Source: Clostridiales bacterium
GTDB lineage: Bacteria > Bacillota > Clostridia > Christensenellales > Aristaeellaceae
Direction: 5' to 3'
Assembly (NCBI GenBank): GCA_012520375.1
Contig: JAAYOH010000003.1
Coordinates: forward strand, 1 to 45,864
Length of the DNA stretch: 45,864 nucleotides
The first letter of the stretch is position 1. The number at the start of each line of letters is the position of its first letter. The position numbers were made by a program, and so were the translations under genes. Shown piece by piece: positions 24,314-41,248 of the stretch. The notes under the pieces were generated by a model. That model had not been told where the DNA came from, did not search any database, and saw nothing but the letters and a program-made list of their open reading frames with translations.

Positions 24314-26479
24314 TTAAATTTTCAGGCGCTGCGCCAGCCGGGTGTTGCGCTGGACCACCTTGTCGTTGCCGATGGCGTAGCCCAGGGCCTTGGTGCTTCC
24401 GATCATCACCAACAGCTTTTTTGCCCGGGTGATGCCGGTATAGATGAGGTTGCGCTGCAGCATGACGAAGTGTGTCATCAGCACCGGCATGACCACCACC
24501 GGGTACTCGCTTCCCTGGGCTTTGTGGATGGTGGTGGCATAGGCCAGCACCAGTTCGTCCAACTCGCTCACGTCGTAGGACGCCTCCAGGCTGTCAAAGC
24601 GCACCCGCAACTCCCGCTCCTCCAGATCCACGGCGCTGATGATGCCGATATCCCCATTGAACACGCCCTTGTCGTAGTTGTTGCGGATCTGCATCACTTT
24701 ATCCCCCAGCCGATACTCGGTGCCCGCCCGGCGCAGCAGGATGGAGCAGGGGTTCAGGGCCTGCTGAAGCTCCCTGTTCATGGACTGCGCCCCAATCACC
24801 CCCCGCTGCATGGGGGTCAACACCTGGATATCGTTGATGGGATCGAAATTGTAGGTGGCGGGCAGGCGCCTTTTGCAGATGGGCACGATCTGGGCCAGAA
24901 CGTGCTCCGGCTCCTCGTCCCGGATAAAAAAGAAATCGGAATCCCGCATATTCGTGATGTTCGGGAACTCCCCCTTGTTGACGCGGTGGGCATTGGTGAC
25001 GATGCGGCTTCCCCTGGCTTGCCTGAAGATGCGTTCCAGCCGGACCACCGGCACAGCTTCGGAGGCGATGATGTCCCGCAGCACGTTCCCCGGGCCGATG
25101 GAAGGGAGTTGATCGATATCTCCAACAAGGATCAGGGTCATGTGTTCCGGCACCGCCTTCAGCAGGTTGTACATCAGGATGATGTCGATCATGGAACATT
25201 CGTCCACGATCAATACATCCCCCTTGAGGGGGTTGGACTCGTTTACCTTGTAGCCCCCGGCGATGCTGTACTCCAGCAGCCGGTGGATGGTCCTGGCAGG
25301 CAGCCCGGTGGCCTCGGTCATGCGCTTGGCCGCCCGGCCCGTGGGCGCCGCCAGCACGATCTCGTAGCCGCCGGCCTCGTACACCCGGATGATGCTGTTG
25401 GTGGTGGTGGTCTTCCCGGTGCCCGGGCCTCCGGTGAGCACCATCACTTTGGAACAGGCAGCGGTGCGGATGGCCTCTAACTGTACCCGGTCGTAGGTCA
25501 GTCCGCTCTTTTCCTGCACCCCGGCGATGAGGGCCTCCACATCCCCCACGGTTTCCCGGCGAGGAGCATTCAGCAACCCCTTCAGTTTCCGGGCCACCCC
25601 GCTCTCGGAAAAAAAGAAGGGGGACAGGTAGACGGCGTCGGAGCCGTCGGCCTCCACACCCGGTTCCACGATCAGGTCCTTGGATTTGACCATGCGCTCC
25701 AGGGTCTCCCGGAGCAGCGCCTCCTCCACCCCCAGCAGTTCCGCCCCCTTTTCCAGCAACTGCCGGGGCCGGGCATAGCAGTGCCCCTCCTCCGCCAGCT
25801 TGTTCAGGCTGTACAAAAGGCCGCAGCGGCAGCGTTCGTAACTCTCTTTTTCGATGCCCAGTTTCCCGGCGATGGCGTCCGCCGTGCGAAAGCCGATGCC
25901 CCACACCTCGTCCGCCAGGCGGTAGGGGTTCTCTTTCACCACCTTGATGCTCTCGTTTTCATAGGTCTTGTAGATCCGTGCGGCATGGGCGGTGGACACG
26001 TCATGGTCCTGCAAAAAGAGCATCAGGTTCTTGATCTCCCGCTGCTTGTTCCAGCCCCGGATGATCATGTCTACCCGGATGCGGCCGATCCCCGGCACTT
26101 CCATGAGCCGTTCCGGCTCGGTTTCGATGACTTCAAGGGTGCGGGCGCCGAAAGTTTCCACAATGCGCCGTGCAAACTTTGCGCCCACACCCTTGATCAA
26201 GCCGCTTCCCAGGTATTTTTCGATGCCGTACACCGTGGCGGGCAAGGTCTCCTCCCAGGAGGATGCCATGAACTGCCGTCCGTACTTGTTGTCGTTCTTC
26301 CACTCCCCGGCGACGATCAGCACCGAGCCCACGTTCACGTCCAGCAGGCTGCCCACCACGGTCACCAGTTCGGCATAGCCCTTCACCCGGGTCTTCAGCA
26401 CGGTGTAGCCGTTTTCCATATTCCTGAAGGTGATGCGCTCCACCACGCAGCGAAGGATGGCGGGGGCCTCCCGGTTCAT
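24314..26479 (-). CDS. recD2: RecD2 family ATP-dependent DNA helicase
   Basis: Superfamily 1B 5'-3' helicase that acts without RecBC. The 721-residue length fits RecD2. The N-terminal domain is OB-like, followed by helix-hairpin-helix repeats (LGSGLIKGVGAKFARRIV; LMEVPGIGRIRVDMI), then Walker A TGGPGTGKTTTTN, Walker B LIVDECSM, and the C-terminal motifs VLTPMQRG and ATTIHKAQGSEYPVVV. The ATG at 26479 overlaps the stop of the LarA-like gene as ATGA. It is therefore the last gene of a catabolic operon, an odd place for a DNA helicase; no terminator was seen behind it. Confidence 0.95.
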   Translation of the reverse strand: MNREAPAILRCVVERITFRNMENGYTVLKTRVKGYAELVTVVGSLLDVNVGSVLIVAGEWKNDNKYGRQFMASSWEETLPATVYGIEKYLGSGLIKGVGAKFARRIVETFGARTLEVIETEPERLMEVPGIGRIRVDMIIRGWNKQREIKNLMLFLQDHDVSTAHAARIYKTYENESIKVVKENPYRLADEVWGIGFRTADAIAGKLGIEKESYERCRCGLLYSLNKLAEEGHCYARPRQLLEKGAELLGVEEALLRETLERMVKSKDLIVEPGVEADGSDAVYLSPFFFSESGVARKLKGLLNAPRRETVGDVEALIAGVQEKSGLTYDRVQLEAIRTAACSKVMVLTGGPGTGKTTTTNSIIRVYEAGGYEIVLAAPTGRAAKRMTEATGLPARTIHRLLEYSIAGGYKVNESNPLKGDVLIVDECSMIDIILMYNLLKAVPEHMTLILVGDIDQLPSIGPGNVLRDIIASEAVPVVRLERIFRQARGSRIVTNAHRVNKGEFPNITNMRDSDFFFIRDEEPEHVLAQIVPICKRRLPATYNFDPINDIQVLTPMQRGVIGAQSMNRELQQALNPCSILLRRAGTEYRLGDKVMQIRNNYDKGVFNGDIGIISAVDLEERELRVRFDSLEASYDVSELDELVLAYATTIHKAQGSEYPVVVMPVLMTHFVMLQRNLIYTGITRAKKLLVMIGSTKALGYAIGNDKVVQRNTRLAQRLKI

Positions 26480-27735
26480 TCCGCCTTCTCCCGCACCCTG
26501 GGCAGGGTGGAACCCCCGTAGGGCATGACCAGGACGGTGGCCTTCTCCCCCAGCTTCGCCCGGGCAGCGTCGTAAGCCTTTTGCACCGAGTCGAAAGGGG
26601 TGAGGAATATGCTGCGCACCAGGTCCGGCTCCATCCGGCTGACAAAATAGATGTCCGCGTTTTTCAGCACCATGGCGATGGCCGCCGCCTTGTGACCGCC
26701 CAGCTTGAAGTCCTGGCGGATGCGCCGGATCAGGCTGTCCGGGCTCTCTGCCTCCCGCATCCATTCCTCAAAGGTGTCCTCCCCGAAGCCCTCGTCGCAG
26801 GCGCCGATCAGCACCACGACGCCTCCGGGCTTCACCGCGTGTTTTGCGTTGTCCAGCGCCTTCTGGGTCTGGTACAGGTTCAGGTCTTTGGGAGATCCTC
26901 CCTGGGACACCAGCACGATGTCCGCCCGGGCGGGGATCTCCTTCAGGTAAAAGCTGTCCAGGAAACGGCAGCCAGCCCGGTGTGCCTCAATCGGGTGTCC
27001 CGCCACCGCTTTCACGATCTCCTTGTGCTCGTCCAACACCAGGTTCAGGATGAAGTCGATGCCCACCATGGCGGCGGCTTCTTCGATGTCCTCCCGGAGG
27101 GGATTGCCCTGCATCCGCCCTGCACAGGCCCTTTCGTCCACCATCAGGCTGTGGTTGCAGCGGATGGCGGAGCGCGTGGACACCCCGGGCATCAGGGCCT
27201 TGCCCCCTCCCGAGTACCCGGCAAAGTAGTGGTATTCGATGTTGCCCAGGCAGATGCGCCGGTCCGCTTCCGCCACCACCCGGGTGATGTCCACCGGCGT
27301 GCCCCGGGCGGTGGTGCCCAGGCGGACGCAGTCCTCCGTGTCGCTGTCCACACATCGGATCTCCCGGATCGCCCGCTCCCCCGCCAGTTTCAGCATCTCC
27401 TCGGGCCTGTGCTTTCTGTGGCTGCCCAGGGCGAACACCAGGGTAACGTCCTTTGGCTCCACCCCCGCCCCGTAGATCTCTTCCAGCAGGGCGTCCATCA
27501 CCTTGGCGGTGGGCATGGGCCGGGTGATGTCGCTGGTGACGATGGCGATCTTCTCCCCCGGGCGGAGGATCTCCCGAAGCCTTGGGGTGCCGATGGGCTC
27601 CTCCAGGGCCCTTCGTACTTCACGTTCCCCCGTGAGGGACAATTCCACCCGGTTGGGGGTCAGGATGTCGAGGATCCGCTCATCCTCCACCGTCACAAGC
27701 TGGTCCCCGCTGCCGTATCCAAGGCTCACCTGCAT
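26476..27735 (-). CDS. larA: LarA-family nickel-dependent racemase/epimerase
   Basis: A 419-residue member of the lactate racemase family, which uses a nickel-pincer nucleotide bound to a lysine to invert 2-hydroxyacids. The key residues of characterised LarA are all found: Asp69 and Arg72 (SDITRP), His106 (GSHRKH), His169 and Lys179 (HYFAGYSGGGK), His195, and the Gln/Lys pair in LNLYQTQKAL. Related proteins act on malate, 2-hydroxyglutarate, phenyllactate or sugar acids, so the substrate is open; inside an inositol operon a sugar acid is plausible. The cofactor makers LarB, LarC and LarE are not in the window. Overlaps pgk by 10 nt and recD2 by 4 nt. Confidence 0.85.
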   Translation of the reverse strand: MQVSLGYGSGDQLVTVEDERILDILTPNRVELSLTGEREVRRALEEPIGTPRLREILRPGEKIAIVTSDITRPMPTAKVMDALLEEIYGAGVEPKDVTLVFALGSHRKHRPEEMLKLAGERAIREIRCVDSDTEDCVRLGTTARGTPVDITRVVAEADRRICLGNIEYHYFAGYSGGGKALMPGVSTRSAIRCNHSLMVDERACAGRMQGNPLREDIEEAAAMVGIDFILNLVLDEHKEIVKAVAGHPIEAHRAGCRFLDSFYLKEIPARADIVLVSQGGSPKDLNLYQTQKALDNAKHAVKPGGVVVLIGACDEGFGEDTFEEWMREAESPDSLIRRIRQDFKLGGHKAAAIAMVLKNADIYFVSRMEPDLVRSIFLTPFDSVQKAYDAARAKLGEKATVLVMPYGGSTLPRVREKAE

Positions 27736-28952
27736 ACCTTGCCCTCCTCCCCGAAGCTGCGGGCAGCGTGGCGCAGCGCCTTCACCACGGGCAGCTCCTC
27801 CCCGCTCAGGAAGCGGATCAGGGCGCCGCCGCCGGTGCACAGGTAGTCCACGTCCTTGGTTTTGCCGTACTTCTTGGTGGCGGTGACGCTGTCTCCGCCC
27901 CCCACCACGGTGTAGGCCTTTGTGGCCCCCAGGGCCTCCCATACCCCCTTGGTGCCCGCCTCGCTCTCGGGCTTCTCGAACACCCCCATGGGGCCGTTGA
28001 CGAATACCGTGCGGGCGCTTTTGATGCGCTCCATGTAGCGCTTCGTGGTCTCTTCCCCGATGTCCACCGCCATGCCGTCCACGTATCCCAGGTCGCCGGG
28101 CAATTCGATCCTGTCCCCGTACCGCTCCAAAAGAGCTTTGCTGGTTTCAATGAAACTGCCGTAGCCCTGGGCCCGGATGAAGGCCAGGCTCTTCTCCCCG
28201 ATGTCGGTCCCCCTGGCGGCCAGCAGGATGTTCCCCACCAGTCCCCCGCTCAGCACCTGGTCCGCCGCGCCGCTCCCCAACACCGTCTCCATCATCTGGA
28301 AGGCATCCGCAACCTTGGCGCCCCCCAGCACAAAGATGCAGGGCCGCTTGGGGCACTCCATCAGCCCGGAGATCACGCAGTACTCCGCTTCGAACAGCCT
28401 GCCCATGCAGCTGGGCAACAGTTGCTGAAAGCCGCACAGGGTGGGCTGGTCCCGGTGGGCCGCCGCAAAGGCGTCGCACACGTACAGATCCGCCAGGGGC
28501 GCCAATTTATGCACCACCTGGGTCTGGGCCTGCTCGGCATGGCTCAGTTTCAGGCTCTTTTCGAACAGGGTCTGCTCCTCGGAGCAAAAGCGCACGTTGT
28601 CCAGTAGCAGGATCTCCCCGGGGGCAAGACCCCGGATCGTCTCCCGGGCCAGGGGCCCGCACACGTCCTCGATCCAGCGCACTTCCCGGCCCAAAAGCTG
28701 GGACAGGACCGCCCCATGGTGCTTGGTGGTGTAGAAGTTGTTGTACTCGATATCGCTGCCCTGATGCGCCAGCAGCACTACCTTCGCACCGCCCTCCGCC
28801 AATTCCCGCACCGTGGGCACACAGGCCTCGATGCGGTGGGTGCTCTTCAAAGTCCCGGTGGCCCGGTCCACGGGCTGATTGATGTCCACCCGGCACAGCA
28901 CCGTTTTCCCATCCAGGCACATCTCATCCAGCGTATTGATGCCAAAGCGCAT
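27726..28952 (-). CDS. pgk: Archaeal-type phosphoglycerate kinase
   Basis: Would transfer phosphate from 1,3-bisphosphoglycerate to ADP. The 408-residue sequence follows the archaeal rather than bacterial PGK pattern: VLCRVDINQPVD, AKVVLLAHQG, KLAPLADLYVCDAFAAAHRDQP, LGGAKVADA, FVNGPMGVFE and TGGGALIRFLSGEELPVVKAL. Substrate residues Arg21, Asp23, Asn25, Arg40, His63 and the Arg of DNVRF and AAHRDQP are kept, but the Arg expected after HxG (HLGRP/HQGRP) is Ser66. The ATG at 28952 was chosen by family start; a GGAGGATGAGATC site precedes it. It follows the class II GAPDH gene, with a palindrome between them. Confidence 0.9.
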   Translation of the reverse strand: MRFGINTLDEMCLDGKTVLCRVDINQPVDRATGTLKSTHRIEACVPTVRELAEGGAKVVLLAHQGSDIEYNNFYTTKHHGAVLSQLLGREVRWIEDVCGPLARETIRGLAPGEILLLDNVRFCSEEQTLFEKSLKLSHAEQAQTQVVHKLAPLADLYVCDAFAAAHRDQPTLCGFQQLLPSCMGRLFEAEYCVISGLMECPKRPCIFVLGGAKVADAFQMMETVLGSGAADQVLSGGLVGNILLAARGTDIGEKSLAFIRAQGYGSFIETSKALLERYGDRIELPGDLGYVDGMAVDIGEETTKRYMERIKSARTVFVNGPMGVFEKPESEAGTKGVWEALGATKAYTVVGGGDSVTATKKYGKTKDVDYLCTGGGALIRFLSGEELPVVKALRHAARSFGEEGKVCR

Positions 28953-28972
28953 GATCTCATCCTCCAAATATT

Positions 28973-28994
28973 GGGGAGGGGCGCGCCCCTCCCC
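28973..28994 (-). repeat. Perfect 22-bp palindrome between gapII and pgk
   Basis: A perfect inverted repeat centred on CGCG (each arm GGGGAGGGGCG and complement) fills the 57-nt gap between the GAPDH stop and the pgk start. There is no T-run on either side, so it is not a typical terminator; an mRNA stability or processing hairpin is more likely. Confidence 0.75.
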
Positions 28995-29009
28995 GCATAT
29001 GTATTTCCC

Positions 29010-30068
29010 TTATCTCTTGAATTTCCCAACGCCCAGGTATTCGTTGGTCCGGGCGGTCCCTTCCTCCCGGGTCAGCTGCATCTTCATGGCCGCCCGCACC
29101 GCGTCGATGGTTTCCGGAATGGTCACCGCCTCCTGGGGAATGTTGATGGCGAACATGATGTCATCGCCGCTCTCCACGATGGAATCCTTCCACAGCGCGA
29201 TCTCGTACATATCGCCCCGGCGGTTCCCCAGGTCCCTGGCATACTTGAACAGGCTGGCGTTGCCCAAAAAGCCTTCGTCGATGGACACCACGCGGATGCG
29301 GGGATGGGCCTCGAAGACTTCCAGCGCCGCTTCCCGGGTGATCTTTTTCCCGTCCTTTGCCGTAGCCAGCACTGTGATGATGTGGCCGTGGGTCACCGGC
29401 GTGTGCACCAGGATGCCCGTTGCCTCTACGTGGGGCATGATGGTCATCAGGTCCACCGCCTGGTGGCTGGGCGCCTTGTCCATCTGCAAAGCGTTGGTGA
29501 GGCCCCGATGGTAGTCGCCGGGATCCGCCACCCGGCGGACGATGGTGATGGCTACCCTTTCGAGGCCAAAAGCCCGGTCCAGGGCGTCCACCGCGCGAAT
29601 CAGGCCGGTGGTGTTGCAGCTGGTCAGTTTCAGATACTCTTGCCCTAAGCCCTTCTCATAGTTGGCGTAGCCGTGGAAGAACACGTCCGCCACGCTGTTC
29701 TTTTCGCCGCCCTGGAAGATGGCCTTGACCCCGTATTTTTCGTAGTAGTTTTCCTTGTTCTTGGCGCCTACGCCGCCGGGGGCGCTGTCCAGCATGATGT
29801 CCACGTTTTTGCAAAGCTCTGCGAAGGAACCGGCTACCGGGATGCCCAGTTCGTCAAACTTGGCCTTATCCGCCCCGTCCACCAGGTACAGCTTGTAGGC
29901 TACGCCGTTGGCCCCTATCATATCGTTTTCCCGCAGGGCCCGCAGCGCCAGGGTAGGCGCCAGATCCGCGACGCCCACAAGTTCCATGTCCTCCTGGAAA
30001 GCCACGCCGTCCGCCAGCCGCTGGCCGATGGTTCCGTATCCCGCTACCCCAACTCTGATCTTTTTCAT
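29010..30068 (-). CDS. Archaeal-type (class II) glyceraldehyde-3-phosphate dehydrogenase
   Basis: A 352-residue enzyme that would oxidise glyceraldehyde 3-phosphate to 1,3-bisphosphoglycerate with NAD(P)+. It matches the archaeal class II family, not bacterial GapA: VGVAGYGTIGQRLADGVA (nucleotide-binding start), DSAPGGVGAKNKENYYEKYG, KAIFQGGEKNSVADV, the catalytic Cys151 in TSCNTTGL, VRRVADPGD, and PRIRVVSIDEGF with YARDLGNRRGDMYEIALW. The bacterial ASCTTNCLAP motif is absent. AAGGAGG lies upstream, 14 nt after the second iolG. Together with the next gene, an archaeal-type PGK, it forms a two-step triose phosphate module in an inositol operon. Confidence 0.9.
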   Translation of the reverse strand: MKKIRVGVAGYGTIGQRLADGVAFQEDMELVGVADLAPTLALRALRENDMIGANGVAYKLYLVDGADKAKFDELGIPVAGSFAELCKNVDIMLDSAPGGVGAKNKENYYEKYGVKAIFQGGEKNSVADVFFHGYANYEKGLGQEYLKLTSCNTTGLIRAVDALDRAFGLERVAITIVRRVADPGDYHRGLTNALQMDKAPSHQAVDLMTIMPHVEATGILVHTPVTHGHIITVLATAKDGKKITREAALEVFEAHPRIRVVSIDEGFLGNASLFKYARDLGNRRGDMYEIALWKDSIVESGDDIMFAINIPQEAVTIPETIDAVRAAMKMQLTREEGTARTNEYLGVGKFKR

Positions 30069-30082
30069 GTATATTTTCCTCC

Positions 30083-31093
30083 TTATTCTTCTACCTTGAC
30101 GGGTTGGCCGCCAAGATCACAGGATTTCTGTGCTGCAATGGCCACCAGCACCGGGGCCAGGCTGTCCCGGGCACTGATGGGCACCGGCTCGTCCTTCAGA
30201 CAGGCGTCCACAAAGGCTTGCTCCTCCTGTACGAAGGCTTCGGTATAGCGCTCCAGGAAGAACCACAGGGGCTTCTCTTCGTACACGCCGCTGGCAAGGC
30301 TCAGGGTGGTGTTGTTGGGCCGTTCGTTCTCCGCAGCCACCATGCCCTTGGAACCGAACACCTCCACCCGCTGGTCGTAGCCGTACACCGCCTGGCGGCT
30401 GTTGTCGATCACCGCCAGGGCGCCGCTTGAAAGCCTTAATTTCACGATGCAGGTATCCACGTCTCCCGCCTCCCCGATCCCCGGGTCTATCAGGCAACTG
30501 CCGACGGCGGAGACCTCGGTGATGCGGCTGCCCGAAAGATGGGCCGCCATGTCGAAGTCGTGTATGGTCATGTCCGCGAAGATGCCTCCGGAGCCCACCA
30601 CATAGCTCACCGGCGGCGCCTGGGGATCCCGGGAAGAGATCTTCACCAGCTGCACCTCCCCCAGGGCGCCCTCCCGCACCAATTCATGGATGCGGCGGAA
30701 ATTCCGGTCGAATCGGCGGTTGAAGCCCACCTGGCACTTGACCCCTGCCGATTCCACCGCCTCGATGACCTTCCGGATCCGGGATACGTCCTGGTCGATG
30801 GGTTTCTCGCAGAAAATGTGCTTGCCCGCCCCGGCGGCTGCCAGGGCGATCTCCACATGGGTATCGGTGGGGGAACAGATGAACACCGCGTCGATATCCG
30901 GATCTTGCAACAGTTCCCGGTAGTCCGGGACCACCCGCTCAATGCCCAGGGGTGTGCACAGAGCCCTTGCGGCCTCAAGATCCGGGTCTGCCAAGGCGAC
31001 CAACCGCGCCCCCGTCACCCGATTCACCAGGTTGGGGGTGTGCACCCTGCTGATCCGGCCCGCGCCGATCATGCCGATATTCAGCCTCTTCAT
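30083..31093 (-). CDS. iolG: Inositol 2-dehydrogenase, Gfo/Idh/MocA family (second copy)
   Basis: NAD-dependent dehydrogenase of the IolG type, 336 residues. Rossmann start NIGMIGAGRISRVHTPNLVN, the CEKPIDQD motif with the catalytic Lys, and the catalytic Asp/His in DMTIHDFDM are present. It is closely similar along its whole length to the preceding gene (for example the shared DNSRQAVYGYDQRVEVFGSKGM block), so the two arose by tandem duplication. The pair may oxidise different isomers (myo-, scyllo-, chiro-) or positions of the ring. Its ATG overlaps the stop of the first copy as ATGA. Confidence 0.9.
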   Translation of the reverse strand: MKRLNIGMIGAGRISRVHTPNLVNRVTGARLVALADPDLEAARALCTPLGIERVVPDYRELLQDPDIDAVFICSPTDTHVEIALAAAGAGKHIFCEKPIDQDVSRIRKVIEAVESAGVKCQVGFNRRFDRNFRRIHELVREGALGEVQLVKISSRDPQAPPVSYVVGSGGIFADMTIHDFDMAAHLSGSRITEVSAVGSCLIDPGIGEAGDVDTCIVKLRLSSGALAVIDNSRQAVYGYDQRVEVFGSKGMVAAENERPNNTTLSLASGVYEEKPLWFFLERYTEAFVQEEQAFVDACLKDEPVPISARDSLAPVLVAIAAQKSCDLGGQPVKVEE

Positions 31094-32109
31094 GCCCGGC
31101 CACCCACTTTCACGGGGGCCCCGCCCAGTTCGTAGGATTTTTTGGCCGCGATGGCGATGAGCACCGGCTGCAGCCCGTCAAAGGCGCCCACCGGGGTATC
31201 CGTATCCGTCAGGCAAGCCTTTACAAAGGCCTTTTCCTCGGTGATGAACGCTTCGTTGTACCGCTCCAGGAAGAACCACAGGGGCTTTTCCTTTTGCACG
31301 CTCTCTGCGGTATACCAGGTGGTGTTGTTGGCGGTCTCGTTGTCCGCGGTGATCATGCCCTTGGAGCCGAATACCTCAACCCGCTGGTCGTAGCCGTACA
31401 CCGCCTGCCGGCTGTTGTCGATAACCCCCAGCGCCCCGTTCTTGAAGCGCAGGGTAATGATGCAGGTATCCACGTCCCCCGCCTCGCCAATGGCGGGATC
31501 CACCAGGCAGGCGCCGTAGGCGCTCACCTCTTCTACCTCGCTCCCGGAAAGGAAGCGCACCATGTCGAAGTCATGGATGGTCATGTCCACGAAAATGCCC
31601 CCGGACGCCTTTACGTAAGAGATGGGCGGCGCGGCGGGATCCCGGGACGTGACCTTTACGATGTGTACGTCCCCCACGCCCCCGCCCTTCACCACTTCCT
31701 GCACACGGCTGAAGTTGCGGTCGAAGCGGCGGTTGAAACCCACCTGGTATTTGACCCCCGCCCTGTTCACCTCTTCCAGCACTTTCTCGATCTTGGCCAG
31801 GTCGTGGTCGATGGGTTTCTCGCAGAAGATGTGCTTGCCTGCCCGGGCGGCCTCGATGGATACGGGAGAATGGGTATCGGTGGAGGAACAGATGAACACC
31901 GCGTCGATGTCCGGGTCCTCGATGATCTTGCGATGGTCGGTGTACCAGGCAGGGATACCCAGCTTTTCCGCCAGTTCCTTTGCGGCGGGCTCGTACACGT
32001 CGGAGACGGCCGTCACCCGGGCCCCCGGCACGCTGTTTACCAGGTTGTTTGCGTGGAGCTTGCCGATGCGGCCCGCACCGATGACGCCGATGCGCAGGGT
32101 CTCATTCAT
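31090..32109 (-). CDS. iolG: Inositol 2-dehydrogenase, Gfo/Idh/MocA family (first copy)
   Basis: A 339-residue IolG-type dehydrogenase that would oxidise myo-inositol to 2-keto-inositol (scyllo-inosose), the first step of the pathway. Seen: RIGVIGAGRIGKLHANNLVN, HIFCEKPIDHD with the catalytic Lys, and DMTIHDFDM with Asp and His. The HANN start of the nucleotide loop is common in characterised IolG. It follows iolD by 15 nt with GGGAGGA as ribosome site, and overlaps its paralogue. Confidence 0.93.
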   Translation of the reverse strand: MNETLRIGVIGAGRIGKLHANNLVNSVPGARVTAVSDVYEPAAKELAEKLGIPAWYTDHRKIIEDPDIDAVFICSSTDTHSPVSIEAARAGKHIFCEKPIDHDLAKIEKVLEEVNRAGVKYQVGFNRRFDRNFSRVQEVVKGGGVGDVHIVKVTSRDPAAPPISYVKASGGIFVDMTIHDFDMVRFLSGSEVEEVSAYGACLVDPAIGEAGDVDTCIITLRFKNGALGVIDNSRQAVYGYDQRVEVFGSKGMITADNETANNTTWYTAESVQKEKPLWFFLERYNEAFITEEKAFVKACLTDTDTPVGAFDGLQPVLIAIAAKKSYELGGAPVKVGGRA

Positions 32110-32124: not shown

Positions 32125-34053
32125 TCAATACTTTTTCGCGTCTTTCACGTGGTTCAGATGGTCCTGCCAGGCCGCCTGGTTTCCGGGACAGTCGGACACC
32201 TCTACCGAGCCCACCCGCCACCAGGCGCCGTAGCCCTCGGTCATGGACTTGGGCAGCACCTTGATGTCGAAGAGCACCGGGATATCCTTCACCTTTTTGG
32301 CGTCCTCCAGTGCCCACTTAAGTTCGCCCATGGTGCGCACCGTATAGGCCACGCAGCCGTAGCCCTTGGCGATGGCGGCGAAATCCACGGGCATGAAGGC
32401 GCCGTCGTGCTTCCCGGTGTCCCTGTTGCGGAAGCGGCGCTCGGTGCACAGGGTCTCGTTGCCCTGGGCCTTCTGCAGGTTGTTGATGCAGCCATAGCTG
32501 GCATTGTCAAACAGGCAGACATTGATCTTGATGCCCTCCTGCACCGCGGTGAGCAGCTCGGAATGCAGCATCACAAAGCTTCCGTCCCCCACCATGGAGT
32601 ACACCTCGTGATCCTCTCCCACGGCCAGCTTGACCCCCAGCGCACCGGAAACTTCGTAGCCCATGCAGGAATAGCCGTACTCCATGTTGTAGGTGTCCGG
32701 GCTGCCGGCCCGCCACATGCGCTGCATGCAACCGGGCAGGGAGCCGGAGGAACCGATGACCGAATCCCCCGGGTGGATCTGGGCGTTGATGGCGGCCAGC
32801 GCCTCGGTCTGGGTAAGGGCCTCCCCCATATCCTCCACAAAGGTGAAGGCGGAATCCGAATTGCCGTCCTTCACTTCGGGCTCATAGCCGGGCCCGAAAG
32901 AGATCCCCGCCAGCCGCCGGTATTCCTGGTTCCAGCCGGCGACAGCCCTTTCGATCTCGCCGTTGTAGCTCGCCCTGTAGCCGGAGAGGGCCGCCAGGAG
33001 GGCGGGCAAGGCTTCCTTGGCGTCTGCGATCACGGGCACCGCGTCCAGCTTGAAGGCCTGGAAGCCGGAGATGTTGATGTTGACAAAGGAGGCGTCTTCT
33101 TTGAATAGCCATTTGGAAGAGGTTGTAAAATCTGTATACCGGGTGCCCACGCCGATGATGCAGTCCGCTTCTTTGGCGATCTCGTTGGCGGCGGAGCAGC
33201 CCGTCACCCCCATGCCCCCCAGGTTCAGGGGATGATCCCAAACGATGGCGCTTTTGCCCGCCTGGGTCTCCCCGAAGGGGATGCCCAGGGTCTCCGCAAA
33301 GGTCCGGAACTCCTCATGGGCTTCGCCGTAGCGCACCCCGCCCCCGCAGACCAGCATGGGCTTTTTGGCCTTGCGGATCACGGCCGCCGCCTTTTCGATG
33401 GCGATCCCCGTGGCGGGGCGCCGCTCTACCTCCCACACCCGCTTGGCGAGGAAGGTCTCGGGATAATCGTAAGCTTCCCCCTCCACGTCCTGGGGGATGG
33501 CGATGCAGACCGCCCCGGTGTCCGCCTGGTCGGTAAGCACCCGGAAAGCGCTGAGCATGGCGCTCATCAATTGTTCGGGGCGCTGGATCCGGTCGAAGTA
33601 ACGGCACACCGCCCGGAAGGCGTCGTTGGTAGAGATGGACAGGTCGTGGGTCTGCTCGATTTGCTGCAGCACCGGGTCGGGCTGCCTGCAAGCGTACACG
33701 TCGCCGGGCAGCAGCAGCACCGGGATGTTGTTGGCGGTGGCGGTGGCCGCGGCGGTCACCATGTTGGCGGCGCCGGGCCCCACGGAGGAGGTGGCCGCCA
33801 TGATCTGCTTGCGCTTCTTGTGTTTGGCAAAGGCCACCGCTACATGGGCCTGCCCCTGCTCGTTTTTGCCCTGATAGATCTCCATGCGCTTGGCTTCCTG
33901 GGAGAGGGCCTGGCCCAGACCCACCACGTTGCCGTGGCCGGGCAGCATCAAAACGCCCCGCACAAAGGGATGTTCCATCCCGTCATAGGCGATGTACTGG
34001 TTCTCCAGAAAACGCACCAGGGCCTGGGCCATGGTCAGTCGAATGGTTTTCAT
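32125..34053 (-). CDS. iolD: 3D-(3,5/4)-trihydroxycyclohexane-1,2-dione acylhydrolase
   Basis: Thiamine-diphosphate enzyme that opens the inositol ring, giving 5-deoxy-glucuronate. The 642-residue protein has the TPP-enzyme layout: N-terminal pyrimidine-binding domain with [23 protein letters not shown], central domain with [10 protein letters not shown], and the TPP motif from [12 protein letters not shown] to NASYGCINN. The start [20 protein letters not shown] is the standard IolD start; AGGAGGAAAAACC precedes the ATG, which overlaps the iolB stop as ATGA. Confidence 0.97.
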
Positions 34054-34850
34054 GGTTTTTCCTCCTGAAAAATGTGCTCGTTGGCGTCCGCTTTCCACAG
34101 CCAGGCGTGCTCGGGATCGTCGATGCGGGTCTTGCGCCAGGGGTCGTCCGGCAAGTGCCTGATCCCCCACATATAGCACATGGCGTAGCCCGGCGCCGTT
34201 ACCTGGGAATGGAAGCCGTGGTTGATGACGCTCAGGCCGTTGTGGCGGGTCTCGTAGATCTCCCCGTTGCCAAAGCCCGCGCCGAAGCCGTGGGGATGGT
34301 CGAAGCGGTAAAAGTACACCTCGGGCTGGGGATGGTGGTGGGGCGGGTAACTGGACCACTTGCCCGGATAGTTCAGCACCTCCCCCAGTACCATGTTGGA
34401 CCAGGGCGCCGACTCGTAGTCGAAGAAGGTCTTGATCTCCCGGCGCATACACCCCATCAGTTCGCCCTGGCTCCCCGCCCGTTGGACGACCACTTCCTCC
34501 GGGGTGTAGAGATGGGCCTCAAAGGTCCTGTCGTTGTCGGTCTTTTGCACGTACAACTCCGCATGGGTGCGGGCGGCGACTTTTACCCGCATCTCCTTCG
34601 GGGCATGCAGGCACCAGGCGTTGTCCCGGAAGGTGTCGGCCCTGGAAGCCTCCGCCTGATGGTCGCCCCAGGAAAAGCACACGCTCCCCTGGAGCAGGTC
34701 CAGGGCGATCTCCTTGTCCGCCTCATGGAACTCAAAGCTTTGGCCCTCTTCCAACACCAACAGACCTACGTCCATACAGGTGCCCATGGCTCCGTCCTCC
34801 ATGTTCAGGTACTCGTTGTACCCGGGCCCGATCTCACGCGTGAAATACAT
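34050..34850 (-). CDS. iolB: 5-deoxy-glucuronate isomerase
   Basis: Cupin-fold isomerase that turns 5-deoxy-glucuronate into 2-deoxy-5-keto-gluconate. The 266-residue product contains the metal-binding histidines in [16 protein letters not shown] and the conserved [22 protein letters not shown]. The ATG at 34850 ([15 protein letters not shown]) was chosen because AGGAGGGGAG precedes it and the family starts here; the extra upstream frame lies in iolE. 11 nt separate it from iolE. Confidence 0.96.
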
Positions 34851-34861
34851 GGTCTCCCCTC

Positions 34862-35761
34862 CTACAATCCTGTATGCTCCCGGATAAATTTCCGGGCCAT
34901 GATGGCGTACTCCAGCGGATCCGCCAAGGCGGGATCCTGCTCCGCCTCCACCAGCAGCCAACCGGTATAGCCCGCCGCCGCCAGCAGTTCAAATACACTG
35001 TCAAAATCCACGCAGCCGTCCCCGGGCACCGTGAAGGCGCCGTTGCGCACCGCCTGCAGGAAAGACCAGCCTTCGGGGCGCACCTTTTTGACCACTTCGG
35101 CCCGCATGTCCTTCAGGTGCACGTGCCCTACCCGGTCCACATATTGTTTCAGTACCGCCAGGGGATCCTCCCCCGCAAAGGTAAAGTGGCCGGTGTCGTA
35201 GCACAGGAATACCTTTTCCGGGTCGGTTGAGGCCAGCATCCGCGCCGTCTCTTCGGCGCTCTGCACCACGGTGCCCATGTGGTGGTGATAGCACAGCTTA
35301 AAGCCCCGGTCCCCGGCGATGCCGCCCAGGTGATCCAGTCCCTTGCAAAAGCGCTCCCACTCTTCCTCGTTCATGACGTACTTGGCGTCCCCCAGCACCG
35401 GCACATCCTGTTTCCCTTGGATGGAATGGCTTTGCTCCGATACGTTGATGCGGTCTGCGCCCAGGGCAGCCAGGAAATCCAGGTTGGCGATGAAGTCCGC
35501 TTCCACCTCCGCCATGGGTTTGGTGAGGAGGAAGGAAGAAAACCAGCGGGAGGCGATGCGCATCCCCCGCAATTTCAGCTGCCTCCCCAGTTCCACCGGG
35601 TCGGAGGGATATTTGTTGCCGATCTCGCAACCCGTAAAGCCCGCCAGCGCCATCTCGCTGATGGTCTGCTTGAACGTGTTTTCCGCCCCCAGTTCGGGCA
35701 TGTCGTCGTTGCACCAGCCGATGGGTGCGATGCCAAGAAATACCTTGCTCTTGTCAAACAT
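34862..35761 (-). CDS. iolE: Inosose dehydratase
   Basis: Xylose-isomerase-like TIM-barrel enzyme that dehydrates 2-keto-myo-inositol to the trihydroxycyclohexane-dione used by IolD. The 299-residue protein shows LGIAPIGWCNDDMPELG, FTGCEIGNKYP, the metal-site blocks LCYHHHMGT, CYDTGHFTFAG and VGHVHLKDMR. GGGGAGGGG lies about 9 nt before the ATG. It is the first catabolic gene after the transporter, separated from the permease by a stable hairpin. Confidence 0.96.
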   Translation of the reverse strand: MFDKSKVFLGIAPIGWCNDDMPELGAENTFKQTISEMALAGFTGCEIGNKYPSDPVELGRQLKLRGMRIASRWFSSFLLTKPMAEVEADFIANLDFLAALGADRINVSEQSHSIQGKQDVPVLGDAKYVMNEEEWERFCKGLDHLGGIAGDRGFKLCYHHHMGTVVQSAEETARMLASTDPEKVFLCYDTGHFTFAGEDPLAVLKQYVDRVGHVHLKDMRAEVVKKVRPEGWSFLQAVRNGAFTVPGDGCVDFDSVFELLAAAGYTGWLLVEAEQDPALADPLEYAIMARKFIREHTGL

Positions 35762-35822: not shown

Positions 35823-36824
35823 TCAGTCTGCCATGGCCATCTTGCGGGCCCGGGCTTCCATCTTGCCCCGCATCACGTCGATGGTCACGGCGGCGATGAT
35901 CACGAGGCCGATGACGATGTACTGGATATCGTTGCCGGCGCTGAACAGGTTCAGCCCGTTGCGGATGGTGGAGATCAACAGGGCGCCCAACATGGTGCCC
36001 CAGATGGTGCCCTTGCCGCCCCGGAAGGATGCGCCTCCGATGATACAGGCCGCGATGGCGTCGGTGTCATAGGTGGCGGCGGAAGCGGTATTGGCGGTAT
36101 TCAGTCGGCCCGCCAGCACAACCCCGGCGATGCCGCACATGAAACCGGAAAGGGTGTACACGATGGTGAGCACGTCCTTGGATCGGATGCCCGACATCCG
36201 GGCCGCTTCCGGGTTGCCCCCCACGCAGTAGATCTGACGGCCCAGGGCGCTGTGGTTCAGGAATACGTGGTAAGCGGCGTAGATGAGGATAACCAGGAGG
36301 AAGCTCACCGGGAATCCGAAGGAGAAGATGGTCTGTTTGCCGATCCACAGCACCGGGTCGATGCCCTTGTTGGTGAATCCGATGGTCTGGGAATTGGTGA
36401 TCAAAAGCGCAATGCCCCAGAACACGAACTTCATGCCCAGGGTGGACACGAAGGGGTGGGGCAGGTCCAGCCTGGTGAGCAGGGTGCCGTTGATGAATCC
36501 GCAGAGGGTGGATACCACAATGGCGGACAGGATGAGCACCACGGGATTGGTGATGCCGTTCTTCATCAGCACGCCGATGAGGCAGGTGGCCAGGATGGCG
36601 TTGTAGCCCACCGACAGGTCGATGCCCGCGGTGATCAGCGCCAGCAGCATGCCGGAGGCGATGATGCAGTTGATGGAGGTCTGCTTCAGGATGTTCATCA
36701 GGTTCGCCACCCGGATGAACTTGCCGGGCAAGGTGATGGTGAATACCACAAACATGATGGCCAGCACCATCAGCGGCCCCAGTTTCATCAAAATATCGGA
36801 CACATTGGTCTTTTTGTTGTTCAT
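35823..36824 (-). CDS. Sugar/inositol ABC transporter permease (RbsC-like)
   Basis: A 333-residue integral membrane protein of the ribose/xylose/inositol (CUT2) permease family, with about eight to ten hydrophobic segments. Typical blocks are SINCIIASGMLLALITAGIDLSVG, VNPHPFVSTLGMKF-like LDLPHPFVSTLGMKFVFWG, and the ATPase contact region GNPEAARMSGIRSK. A second family block is ACIIGGASFRGGKGTIWG. The ATG at 36824 overlaps the ATPase stop as ATGA. The same-operon iol genes suggest inositol as cargo. One permease gene implies a homodimeric channel. Confidence 0.93.
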   Translation of the reverse strand: MNNKKTNVSDILMKLGPLMVLAIMFVVFTITLPGKFIRVANLMNILKQTSINCIIASGMLLALITAGIDLSVGYNAILATCLIGVLMKNGITNPVVLILSAIVVSTLCGFINGTLLTRLDLPHPFVSTLGMKFVFWGIALLITNSQTIGFTNKGIDPVLWIGKQTIFSFGFPVSFLLVILIYAAYHVFLNHSALGRQIYCVGGNPEAARMSGIRSKDVLTIVYTLSGFMCGIAGVVLAGRLNTANTASAATYDTDAIAACIIGGASFRGGKGTIWGTMLGALLISTIRNGLNLFSAGNDIQYIVIGLVIIAAVTIDVMRGKMEARARKMAMAD

Positions 36825-38326
36825 GTCAACGCTCCTCCCCATGCGGCACGCATGATGTCTTCCTGGTTGAAGTGTTTGCTGCCCCGTTCGATCTCCGCCA
36901 TCACCCGGCCCTCCCGCATGACGATCACCCGGTCTGCCATGCCCAGGACCTCGGGCAGTTCGGAGGAGACCATGATCAGGCATTTCCCCTCTTTCACCAA
37001 CTGGTTCATGACGTTGTACACCTCCACCTTGGCGCCCACGTCGATGCCCCGGGTGGGCTCGTCGAAGATGTAGATGTCCGCATCACAGTTGATCCACTTG
37101 CCGATGACTACTTTCTGCTGGTTGCCGCCGGACAGCTGCATGGTCACCTCTTCCGTGCTGGGGGTCTTGATCCGCAGGGTGTCCACCATGCCCTGGGCGT
37201 TCTCTTCTATCTGTTTGCTCTTGAGCAGGGGCCCCTTCATGAATTTCTTCATGTTGGCCAGGATCATGTTGGTCTTCACGGACTGGGACAATACCAGGCC
37301 CTGCCCCTTTCTGTCCTCGGTCAAAAAGGCGATGCCGTTCCGGATGGACTGGCTCGGGTTGCGGTTGTTCACCTTTTGCCCCCGGATGTAAATGTCGCCC
37401 CCGTCCAATTTGTCCGCCCCGAACAGGGCCCGCATGGTCTCGGTGCGCCCGGCGCCCACCAGGCCCGCAAAGGCCAGGATCTCGCCGCCGTAAGCCTCGA
37501 AGGACACGTCCTTCAGCACGCCGATGGACGTCAGGTGCTCGCACTTCAGCATGCACTCACCCTTCACGCCGAACTCCTTGGGGAATTGGTTCTCCAGGGT
37601 GCGCCCCACCATGGCCTGGATCAGCTTGTCGTTGGTCATGTTCGCCATGTCTTCGGTGATGATGTGCTCCCCGTCCCGCATGACGGTGACCCGGTCGCAC
37701 AATTCGAACAATTCTTCCAGCTTGTGGGACACGAAGAGGATGGCGATGCCCCGCTCTTTCAAATCCCGCACCGTCTTCATCAACTGCTTGATTTCCTGCT
37801 CGCCCAGGGAAGAGGTGGGCTCGTCCATGATGAGCAACTTGGCATTGATGGATACGGCTTTGGCGATCTCCACCATTTGCTGCATGCCCATGCCCAGTTT
37901 TCCGCATTCCCTTTTGGTATCCGCATCCGGATGGCCCAGGGTAGCCAAGGCTTCTTTGGCCTCCCTGTGCATCCTGGGATAGTCCAGCAGCCCATACTTG
38001 TTTGTAATCTTGCGCCCCATGAACACATTGTCCACCACAGGCAGCATGGGCACGATGTTCAGTTCCTGGTATACGCAGGCGATGCCCGCCTCCCGCGCCT
38101 GCACGGGGTTGGAGAAGGACACCTTCTTTCCTTCCACATAGATCTCGCCCTCTTCGGGGACGTGTACGCCGGTAAGCACCTTGATCAAGGTGGATTTCCC
38201 GGCGCCGTTTTCGCCGACGAGACCGTGGATTTCGCCCGGCCGGATTTGTATATGCATGTCCCGCATCGCGATGACGCCGGGAAAGCGCTTCGTAACATGC
38301 TTCAGTTCTACAACGTATTCAGACAT
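36821..38326 (-). CDS. Sugar/inositol ABC transporter ATP-binding protein (RbsA-like)
   Basis: A 501-residue protein with two fused ABC domains, as in RbsA/MglA/XylG. The first half has Walker A GENGAGKST, a degenerate signature (GMGMQQMVEIAKA) and Walker B LLIMDEPTSSL; the second half has the altered Walker A GLVGAGRTET, the signature LSGGNQQKVVIGKW and Walker B IYIFDEPTRGIDVG. Such asymmetry is normal in CUT2 ATPases. The ATG at 38326 has GAGGTGG upstream. A terminator-like hairpin separates it from the binding-protein gene. Confidence 0.95.
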   Translation of the reverse strand: MSEYVVELKHVTKRFPGVIAMRDMHIQIRPGEIHGLVGENGAGKSTLIKVLTGVHVPEEGEIYVEGKKVSFSNPVQAREAGIACVYQELNIVPMLPVVDNVFMGRKITNKYGLLDYPRMHREAKEALATLGHPDADTKRECGKLGMGMQQMVEIAKAVSINAKLLIMDEPTSSLGEQEIKQLMKTVRDLKERGIAILFVSHKLEELFELCDRVTVMRDGEHIITEDMANMTNDKLIQAMVGRTLENQFPKEFGVKGECMLKCEHLTSIGVLKDVSFEAYGGEILAFAGLVGAGRTETMRALFGADKLDGGDIYIRGQKVNNRNPSQSIRNGIAFLTEDRKGQGLVLSQSVKTNMILANMKKFMKGPLLKSKQIEENAQGMVDTLRIKTPSTEEVTMQLSGGNQQKVVIGKWINCDADIYIFDEPTRGIDVGAKVEVYNVMNQLVKEGKCLIMVSSELPEVLGMADRVIVMREGRVMAEIERGSKHFNQEDIMRAAWGGALT

Positions 38327-38373
38327 CTGGCCACCTCGTTTCTGGTCTTCGCCTATGCGGCGGAGCAAGGGAG

Positions 38374-38412
38374 AAAAAACGGGCGATCCGAGGATGGGCA
38401 TCGGATCGCCCG
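38374..38412 (-). terminator. Terminator/attenuator after the binding-protein gene
   Basis: Minus strand: CGGGCGATCCGA (38412-38401) and TCGGATCGCCCG (38391-38380) form a perfect 12-bp stem with a 9-nt loop, followed at once by TTTTTT. It is a canonical Rho-independent terminator 54 nt past the binding-protein stop, but the ATPase gene has no evident promoter, so it is probably leaky and sets more binding protein than ATPase and permease. Confidence 0.88.
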
Positions 38413-38465: not shown

Positions 38466-39380
38466 TTACTTGAGGTAGTCTGCGCAGTTTTCCGCATCGA
38501 TGATGACGGTGTCCACCACCACGTTGGCTTCCACAGCCTCGCCCTGCAGGGCCTTCAGCGCGGTCTCCACGGCCAGATACCCCATGAGGGTGGGCTGCTG
38601 GGCCACGGTGGCTTTCAGGTCGCCGGAGGCGATCAGTTCCACGGCGCTGGCGTTGCCGTCAAATCCGATGATGTTGATGCCTTCCACACCGGCCGCCTGT
38701 ACGGCGTTCAGGGCGCCGATGGCGGTGTCGTCGTTCATGCACAGCACCAGGTTGATGCCGTCGGGATAGGCGTTCAGCAGGTCTTCCATAACCTTGGTTG
38801 CTCCGTCGGTGGTGTTGTTGCCGGACAGCTGCGCGACCAGTTCCAGGCCGGCCTCGGCCACGGCTTTTTCATAGCCGCTCTTGCGCAGGTTGGAGGTGTT
38901 GTCCCCCTCCTGGCCGTAGATGATGACCGCCTTGGTGTCGGCGCCGTTGATGGCTACGCCGTAGTCGCCGCCCTGCTTCGCCGCCACCTCGTTGGAGGTG
39001 CCCACGAAAGAGGTCTTGCCCTCATAGGCGCAGTCGGTATCGCAGAACACCACAATGCCCTGATAGCCGCTGGACTCGATGGCGCCGATGACCGCGTCGC
39101 CGTCCAGGGGAGCGATGATGACGGCGTCGGGGGCGCCGGCCAGCTGGGTCTCAAGCTGGGCGACCTGCTCGGCGATCTCGGTCTCGGCAGCAGCGCCCTG
39201 TACGTCGATGTTCACACCCAGTTCTTCGGCGGCTGCGTCGCAGCCCGCCTTCACGTTCTGCCAGTACTCGCTGGAAAGGGTCTTCAGGTTGATGGCGATG
39301 GTGAAATCCTCCGCCATCGCGGGCAGGCACAGGGCCAGGGCCAAAATAAGGACCAGGACGATCGAGAGAAGCTTCTTCAT
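38466..39380 (-). CDS. Sugar/inositol ABC transporter substrate-binding protein
   Basis: A 304-residue periplasmic-binding-protein type I (RbsB-like) receptor that would deliver inositol to the membrane complex. The signal peptide covers residues 1-23 (MKKLLSIVLVLILALALCL, cut after AMA). The mature part begins EDFTIAINLKTLSSEYW and shows APDAVIIAPLDGDAV and GFDGNASAVELIASGDLKATVAQQP, typical of the family. The one Cys in the signal (LALC) does not make a good lipobox, because Leu precedes it. The ATG at 39380 was chosen for the signal peptide and for AGGAGG upstream. Confidence 0.93.
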   Translation of the reverse strand: MKKLLSIVLVLILALALCLPAMAEDFTIAINLKTLSSEYWQNVKAGCDAAAEELGVNIDVQGAAAETEIAEQVAQLETQLAGAPDAVIIAPLDGDAVIGAIESSGYQGIVVFCDTDCAYEGKTSFVGTSNEVAAKQGGDYGVAINGADTKAVIIYGQEGDNTSNLRKSGYEKAVAEAGLELVAQLSGNNTTDGATKVMEDLLNAYPDGINLVLCMNDDTAIGALNAVQAAGVEGINIIGFDGNASAVELIASGDLKATVAQQPTLMGYLAVETALKALQGEAVEANVVVDTVIIDAENCADYLK

Positions 39381-39455
39381 GGGGTCATTCCTCCTATTAT
39401 ATATTGTTTTCTTCCCGGATGAGCGGCGTTCACACTGCCGACCATCATTGAGTAT

Positions 39456-39484
39456 ATTGTAAACAACCCCCCGCCTTTTGTCAA
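39456..39484 (-). promoter_or_regulatory. Sigma-A promoter of the inositol operon
   Basis: Minus strand: perfect TTGACA (39484-39479), 17-bp spacer, TACAAT (39461-39456), about 75 nt before the binding-protein start. GTAAACAAC (39459-39467), overlapping the -10 box, and an inverted near-copy GTTGTTTGC (39525-39533) in the shared intergenic region are candidate operator half-sites for the divergent DeoR regulator; this is weak evidence. Confidence 0.85.
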
Positions 39485-39555
39485 TACTTGTTGGAGAACT
39501 TACCCAAAATCCCTGGTTTCTTGTGTTGTTTGCGTCTCTTTTTCGCCTTGCTGTA

Positions 39556-39585
39556 TTGACAGACGGCAAAATCCCGTGATAGACT
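39556..39585 (+). promoter_or_regulatory. Sigma-A promoter of the DeoR regulator gene
   Basis: Perfect TTGACA (39556-39561), 18-bp spacer, TAGACT (39580-39585), 34 nt before the ATG at 39620. It faces away from the inositol operon promoter, with 71 bp between the two -35 boxes. Confidence 0.75.
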
Positions 39586-41229: not shown

Positions 41230-41248
41230 ATTCTCGTCTCCCCTCCCG

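Follow-up and report, generated by a model that had tools for sequence, protein, structure and literature searches.

The stretch of DNA analyzed here (the window) comprises 45,864 nucleotides of a Clostridiales bacterium (GenBank assembly GCA_012520375.1, contig JAAYOH010000003.1, positions 1 to 45,864 of the forward strand). Its minus strand carries an operon for the breakdown of inositol, and within this operon, between inositol dehydrogenase genes and a racemase gene, lie homologues of two consecutive enzymes of glycolysis: a type II glyceraldehyde-3-phosphate dehydrogenase (GAPDH), here gapII, and a phosphoglycerate kinase (PGK), here pgkII. The subject of this report is the function of that pair. 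The genes of the region are:

39620..40384, plus strand: DeoR-family regulator, divergent from the operon (SrlR/GlpR/AgaR models, below their cut-offs)
38466..39569, minus strand: sugar-binding protein of an ABC transporter (PF13407; RbsB-like, below cut-off)
36821..38401, minus strand: sugar ABC transporter ATPase (PF00005; sugar-ATPase models below their cut-offs)
35823..36983, minus strand: sugar ABC transporter permease (PF02653)
34862..35761, minus strand: iolE, inosose dehydratase (TIGR04379, 395.2 bits against a cut-off of 290)
34050..34961, minus strand: iolB, 5-deoxy-glucuronate isomerase, divergent (PF04962 KduI/IolB, 170.9 bits)
32125..34050, minus strand: iolD, trihydroxycyclohexane-dione hydrolase (TIGR04377, 877.7 bits against 715)
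31090..32109, minus strand: iolG1, inositol 2-dehydrogenase (TIGR04380, 475.8 bits against 355)
30083..31093, minus strand: iolG2, inositol 2-dehydrogenase (TIGR04380, 438.9 bits against 355)
29010..30068, minus strand: gapII, type II (archaeal-type) GAPDH homologue, 352 amino acids (NF003251, 390.7 bits against 185)
27726..28952, minus strand: pgkII, archaeal-like PGK homologue, 408 amino acids from an internal ATG (PF00162, 344.7 bits against 27)
26476..27738, minus strand: larA, nickel-pincer racemase of the malate racemase LarAH6/Mar2 type (NF052593, 568.3 bits against 500)

The genes are tightly packed: iolG2 is followed after 14 nt by gapII, then after 57 nt by pgkII, which overlaps larA by 13 nt, and downstream of larA comes recD2. 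For pgkII we chose the internal ATG as the start, where the list of open reading frames starts at 28967. The ABC transporter is a probable inositol uptake system, judging from its place in the operon. The original prediction, made from the letters alone, had placed gapII and pgkII correctly, including their order after iolG and before larA and their tight packing, and the five motifs it quoted are present in the two translations. It took the pair for a triose-phosphate module of archaeal type, dedicated to inositol carbon. The search for a normal gapA and pgk that it called for was made in the full window genome (2.29 Mb in 106 contigs, 95% complete), and both were found, an ordinary gapA on contig C16 and an ordinary pgk on contig C20. 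The pair comes in addition to these, and we set aside the idea that gapII and pgkII are the housekeeping GAPDH and PGK of the organism.

Both proteins do belong to the archaeal-type families to which they had been assigned. GapII also exceeds the cut-off of a second model (TIGR01546, 293.5 bits against 232.9), and its four closest solved relatives (2czc, 1cf2, 1b7g and 2yyy, at 213-239 bits, with the next at 25.1 bits or less) are archaeal enzymes. The SCNTTG motif is unchanged in six aligned members of the GapII family, and the catalytic His that follows it is kept in a wider alignment. Compared with the archaeal enzymes, a small set drawn from PDB matches (four GAPDHs, and a single PGK for the comparison below), 20 columns that are invariant in all four hold a different, near-invariant residue in 107 GapII sequences. 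Specifically, the changes include K to D at 35, H to Q at 203, L to H at 227 and M to G at 228; the archaeal Lys of the cofactor strand, SHH and LMH are not retained in the family, and the changed columns include neighbours of the catalytic His. Residue 35 is Asp in 106 of the 107 family members and Lys in the four archaeal enzymes, which suggests a preference for NAD+.

For PgkII the best solved relative is 2cun, the PGK of P. horikoshii (279.7 bits), followed by 3uwd (190.9 bits), and in a tree of 33 of the 128 sequences, containing a single archaeal PGK, pgkII and 2cun are split from ten housekeeping PGKs with 100/100 support. In pig PGK the 3-phosphate of the substrate is bound by Arg65, Arg122 and Arg170, while His62 contacts the bridging oxygen and Asp23 and Asn25 the 2-oxygen (PMC7729029). 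The position of Arg65 is occupied by Arg in 28 and by Lys in 2 of 30 housekeeping PGKs, a subset of those found, and by neither in any of 96 pgkII sequences (92 distinct, as four come from duplicate loci): the 80 near sequences (76 distinct) have Ser, and a further 16 have Asp (13), Ser (2) or Gly (1). Asp23, Asn25, Arg38, His62, Arg122, Arg170 and Lys215 are retained wherever the alignment covers them, and the window PgkII itself has Ser at the Arg65 position with the remaining residues of the patch kept. Loss of Arg65 is what a substrate group smaller and less charged than phosphate, such as a carboxylate, would be expected to leave.

To see what accompanies the pair elsewhere we can turn to other genomes. 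In 60 genomes of the same family, full-length type II GAPDH-like matches and low-scoring (<380 bits) full-length PGK matches occur in the same six, as sorted by score and confirmed by alignment, so the pairing is not due to chance. A scan of named genomes, covering the best 80 of 350 matching stretches, and searches of the family, class and phylum together gave 113 loci, of which 107 are distinct: we dropped the duplicates L097, L115, L139 and L140, L252, which overlaps L201, and L218, which has no gapII. Two loci each come from G168, from G222 and from one further assembly (L085 and L107). The scanned stretches, again the best 80 of 350, are mostly Clostridia-type metagenome assemblies, many from rumen or gut, with four labelled spirochaete and one Synergistaceae.

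Unless noted otherwise, locus counts are from a recount of the neighbours by tblastn (at least 100 bits, no overlap filter). In the 107 loci, gapII is accompanied by pgkII in 100, by larA in 81, by tktN and tktC, which match the two halves of transketolase models, in 66 each (a split transketolase being present in 67) and by malic enzyme in 42; a tartrate-type dehydrogenase is found in one (L062). The inositol genes iolE, iolB and iolD are present in 57, 56 and 55 loci, and any of the three in 61. A first count, requiring 40% identity over 100 amino acids, with an overlap filter that hid some genes, including the iolB of the window, had given 100 pgkII, 80 larA, 64 tktN, 42 malic enzyme and 60 loci with iolD, iolE or iolB. 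Malic enzyme and the transketolase halves were named by their best match to full-length models, with scores under the cut-offs. Median intergenic gaps lie between -3 and 37 bases (86 loci, duplicates included). In the first set, 45 of 82 loci had at least 5 kb on each side of gapII, and 42 of those 45 contain larA, malic enzyme or tartrate dehydrogenase.

The kinase of the usual inositol pathway, IolC, was found by tblastn (at least 100 bits) in none of the 107 loci, and an IolJ-like aldolase (L202, 39% identity) and a transaldolase-like gene (L093, 33%) in one each, both without iolD, iolE or iolB. Formation of dihydroxyacetone phosphate (DHAP) from inositol needs the IolC kinase, so at these loci no DHAP would arise by the known route. 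The predicted dedication to inositol stands in part: the pair is kept together and tied to inositol genes in many genomes, but in 46 of the 107 loci none of iolD, iolE and iolB is seen, and many of these loci are on short contigs.

These results can be held against the reading in which GapII and PgkII are a true GAPDH and PGK, a second lower-glycolysis module that drains inositol-derived triose phosphate, perhaps with another cofactor. Both proteins score in the GAPDH and PGK families, PgkII retains two of the three arginines that hold the phosphate in PGK, and, by the first count, a phosphoglycerate-mutase-like gene stands by 24 of the 107 loci, as it would in a true GAPDH-PGK-phosphoglycerate mutase set. 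That gene lies 12-194 bp before iolG in 22 of the 24, and the two proteins checked with Pfam (L082:7368-8948 and L091:7365-8930) are circularly permuted, with the metalloenzyme part preceding most of iPGM_N; in seven loci viewed by eye, HAD-like genes precede some of these genes. A true GAPDH and PGK would, however, leave the malate racemase, malic enzyme and transketolase unexplained, would find no DHAP by the known route where IolC is missing, would have lost Arg65 in 96 of 96 sequences, and would duplicate the ordinary gapA and pgk of the window genome. We therefore regard this reading as unlikely, and the triose-phosphate part of the original prediction as probably wrong.

The usual partners of the pair point to malate instead. 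The closest solved relative of LarA is the malate racemase Mar2 (400.3 bits), and in the 62 larA sequences of the first locus set the residues Y172 and Q293 of Mar2 are kept throughout, as are an Asp, an Arg, a Lys and two His belonging to the site, though K173 is not; K351, which the authors of the Mar2 work think binds the second carboxylate of malate (PMC7583248), is kept in 61 of 61. The malic enzyme of the window genome, on contig C15, is 78% identical to the malic enzymes of gapII loci. In L062 the dehydrogenase is named tartrate dehydrogenase by NCBIfam (503.8 bits against 470.4), and is presumably able to use D-malate. The split transketolase of the window genome lies on contig C80 (L207:7833-9643) beside ABC transporter-like genes, and is the orthologue, sister in the tree (100/98), of the one in the iol locus of a congener. 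In genome G395 the iolD locus L265 has a split transketolase (L265:3203-5014) and no gapII, pgkII or larA, which may be a separate link of transketolase to inositol, independent of the malate module.

What is observed is the set of genes and how they are linked, the absence of IolC at gapII loci and the residue changes; from these we infer each substrate from 2-deoxy-5-keto-D-gluconate (DKG) on, together with the stereochemistry, the cofactor and the reaction directions. IolG, IolE, IolD and IolB would form DKG in the usual way. Written from its keto end, DKG is CH2OH-CO-CHOH-CHOH-CH2-COO-, and, as derived from the compound names, it would match xylulose 5-phosphate in carbon order and in its D-threo configuration, CH2-COO- taking the place of CH2-O-PO3. 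The split transketolase could then transfer the CH2OH-CO unit of DKG to an acceptor sugar phosphate, for example glyceraldehyde 3-phosphate; what remains, OHC-CHOH-CH2-COO-, would be D-malate semialdehyde, which is analogous to D-glyceraldehyde 3-phosphate. We propose that GapII is a phosphorylating D-malate-semialdehyde dehydrogenase, which would convert this aldehyde with NAD+ and phosphate to D-malyl 1-phosphate, and that PgkII is an ATP-forming D-malyl-phosphate kinase, which would pass the phosphoryl group to ADP to yield one ATP and D-malate. LarA would turn D-malate into L-malate, and malic enzyme would turn L-malate into pyruvate and CO2. A racemase, or the L062 dehydrogenase, is what a D-malate product would need: such a product explains both the presence of a malate racemase beside malic enzyme and, in L062, of a tartrate-type dehydrogenase in their place. 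We consider it likely that the operon encodes a kinase-independent inositol pathway of this kind, ending at malate, with GapII and PgkII re-purposed.

Two further readings change the substrate. According to one, an unlinked aldolase splits unphosphorylated DKG into malonate semialdehyde and dihydroxyacetone, DhaKL phosphorylates the latter, and GapII and PgkII carry malonate semialdehyde through malonyl phosphate to malonate and ATP. The acyl-phosphate chemistry is the same, and dhaL and dhaK, encoding the subunits of dihydroxyacetone kinase, are found in the window at 40600-42259, about 11 kb from gapII and just past the DeoR-type regulator. Malonate semialdehyde, however, lacks a hydroxyl with which the conserved Asp23/Asn25 pair could interact, and this reading gives the malate racemase and malic enzyme nothing to do; dhaK and dhaL are found in no other of the 107 loci, though this counts for little since the flanks there are mostly shorter than 11 kb. 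We regard it as extremely improbable. The other reading, which is slightly less so but still very unlikely, has the module act on another 3-hydroxy-4-oxo or tetrose acid from several sugar-acid pathways, with inositol as one source and a relative of malate, for example tartrate, as the product. It would account for the loci that lack iolD, iolE and iolB, several of which have larA or malic enzyme beside other transporters, and malate racemases epimerise tartrate too, to a lesser degree (PMC11770544). Against it, malic enzyme points to malate, and by structure a transketolase step on DKG cannot yield tartrate semialdehyde.

Some of the loci have other surroundings. Judged by eye, L248 and L249 contain gapII and pgkII, a split transketolase at some distance, a larA-like gene (in L249 on the opposite strand), sugar ABC transporter genes and a creatininase-like gene, with no iolD, iolE or iolB; there the module probably serves another substrate. 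In L244 (4803-14341) and L245 (4989-11591), gapII, pgkII, larA and malic enzyme lie beside apparent subunits of a dehydrogenase complex of the 2-oxoacid or acetoin type (by eye), perhaps another thiamine-dependent source of aldehyde. A protein of the Asp/Glu/hydantoin racemase family, of about 220 amino acids, adjoins gapII/pgkII in L062 (7963-8637), L191 (2-664) and L198 (5945-6604), all without iolD, iolE or iolB; the family was called by Pfam in L062 and by a look at the sequence in the other two. In the window itself, a monomeric [FeFe] hydrogenase of group B1 is encoded at 43597-45018 (TIGR04105, 560.5 bits against 450).

We can also compare the different ways in which genomes deal with DKG. 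Among 391 genomes of the class, iolD exceeds its cut-off in 28, iolC in 13, and a strong gapII (E <1e-100) is present in 16. In the 28 iolD-positive genomes iolC over its cut-off occurs in 11 and gapII in 12, and never both (Fisher p = 2.5e-4, or 6.6e-5 with G116 counted, whose iolC is just under the cut-off at 283 against 300 bits; both values ignore kinship); outside these 28 there are two genomes with iolC and four with gapII. Judged by their iolD loci, 12 of the 28 genomes (13 loci) are of the kinase type, five are of a transaldolase type and eleven have gapII without either. G238, whose iolD locus carries the transaldolase and whose gapII is 160 kb away, was entered as gapII in the genome counts (12 gapII, 0 both) and in the Fisher test. 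Nine of the eleven gapII-only genomes have an iolD match on the gapII contig (partial in G157); the iolD contig of G381 has malic enzyme, and that of G398 malic enzyme and larA.

The 13 kinase-type and 5 transaldolase-type iolD loci serve as controls. IolC is present in all 13 of the former, and tblastn gave no match of at least 50 bits to gapII, pgkII, larA or malic enzyme in any of the 18, and one weak transketolase match (L269, 87 bits). In the transaldolase-type loci a transaldolase-family gene and an aldehyde-dehydrogenase-like gene replace iolC and the gapII module (L204:5862-6941, L205:5910-6986, L206:9425-10501, L215:6074-7150 and L261:7994-9070), which suggests cleavage of DKG by the transaldolase to malonate semialdehyde. 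The transaldolases were scored with models in L204 and L205 (below the NCBIfam cut-offs, with Pfam TAL_FSA over its cut-off in L204) and recognized by similarity in the other three; three of the five genomes belong to one genus. We had entertained the rule that every iolD operon holds one of the three modules, and it is broken by the second iolD loci L264 (G214) and L265 (G395).

An unlinked IolC and IolJ in the window genome was another candidate that we rejected. The best IolC match reaches 193.6 bits against a cut-off of 300 and fits a fructokinase model better, and the class II aldolases score 278, 208, 176 and 123 bits on NF005288, under its cut-off of 396, where three aldolases beside iolC score 467-508 bits. 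In two module-bearing members of the family, G017 and G019 (97 and 96% complete), there is one class II aldolase each; should this be the aldolase of glycolysis, no gene would be left for a separate IolJ.

Several observations weigh against the malate route, in addition to the phosphoglycerate-mutase-like genes. The window locus lacks both transketolase and malic enzyme, which lie on other contigs, and it is one of 15 among the 61 loci with iolD, iolE or iolB that show no transketolase. Ten of the 107 loci, L062 among them and some on short contigs, have none of iolD, iolE, iolB, transketolase, larA or malic enzyme. In L108, gapII is followed by iolE, and both pgkII and larA are missing. By the first count, another PfkB-family kinase is found near 18 of the 107 loci, mostly on the opposite strand; the kinase itself is far from IolC. 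The window genome also has an unlinked cluster of a PfkB kinase, a class II aldolase and an aldehyde dehydrogenase on contig C84, with identities of 25% to IolC, 38% to IolJ and 27% to the dehydrogenase of a transaldolase-type locus. The absence of IolJ carries less weight than that of IolC, since even among the 13 kinase-type loci only 9 have IolJ. The locus L264 has none of the three modules (iolC is elsewhere in G214), and G395 carries an iolC locus as well as the transketolase-type L265 that lacks gapII. For the individual proteins, K173 of Mar2 is replaced by Phe in all 62 larA sequences, including that of the window; the L062 dehydrogenase also exceeds the 3-isopropylmalate dehydrogenase model (412.6 bits against 393); the window iolB scores 91.4 bits on TIGR04378, under the cut-off of 205; and a PGK that has lost one of the three arginines at the phosphate might still be able to use 1,3-bisphosphoglycerate.

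The sugar alcohol inositol is common in the diet and also derives from phytate, and its breakdown by bacteria is usually predicted from IolC and IolJ. If the malate route is correct, many anaerobes (within the best 80 of 350 stretches, many of them from rumen or gut) make D-malate and ATP from inositol without a DKG kinase, and annotations such as 'type II GAPDH' and 'PGK' are misleading in them. It would also give a physiological role to the Mar2-type malate racemases, for which the role in vivo is an important remaining question according to their discoverers (PMC7583248). We moderately favour a broader view as well: a natural, energy-conserving malyl-phosphate module, fed by thiamine-dependent ketol transfer and widespread in gut and rumen anaerobes, would serve inositol and, beside other transporters, further ketose acids, and would form with the kinase/aldolase and transaldolase systems three interchangeable ways of cleaving DKG. 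Among open PubMed Central records, by titles and the starts of abstracts, we found no report joining inositol or iol with type II GAPDH, transketolase, transaldolase, malate semialdehyde, malate racemase or a D-malate route.

Set beside known systems, the operon is probably best described as a variant of inositol catabolism with a re-purposed GAPDH and PGK. The canonical pathway, IolG-E-D-B-C-J, is that of Bacillus subtilis, and the IolG, IolE, IolD and IolB steps to DKG are the same here. In contrast to it, the gapII loci lack IolC and have transketolase, GapII, PgkII, malate racemase and malic enzyme instead. Anaerobic use of inositol by Anaerostipes follows the canonical scheme from DKG on, with the IolC kinase and IolJ aldolase yielding DHAP and 3-oxopropionate (PMC8355322). 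The closest parallel for the proposed transketolase step is in sulfoquinovose breakdown, where the two-gene split transketolase SqwGH takes an unphosphorylated acidic ketose as ketol donor and glyceraldehyde 3-phosphate as acceptor, and where transaldolase and transketolase variants both exist (PMC11659671). The proposed substrate differs in being a carboxylate ketose from inositol rather than a sulfonate, and the leftover aldehyde would be oxidised via an acyl phosphate with a gain of ATP. Malic semialdehyde is also converted to malate in carnitine degradation by Acinetobacter (CntAB), and the gene cluster includes a predicted tartrate dehydrogenase; there a malate-semialdehyde dehydrogenase is predicted, and the cited excerpt mentions no ATP-forming step (PMC6562126). 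An engineered malyl-phosphate pathway to 2,4-dihydroxybutyrate combines a malate kinase with a phosphorylating malate-semialdehyde dehydrogenase, activities which, with their intermediates, had by its authors' account not been reported before and hence were engineered (PMC5481828). That pathway is synthetic, uses the other carboxyl (malyl-4-phosphate), runs in the reductive direction and is built from aspartate-pathway enzymes; GapII and PgkII, if correctly assigned, would be natural counterparts of the enzymes that had to be engineered. With the archaeal type II GAPDH and PGK they share the sequence family and the catalytic residues, and they are set apart from them by the changes at the phosphate site and next to the catalytic His, by their place in a bacterial catabolic operon and by their tie to enzymes of malate.

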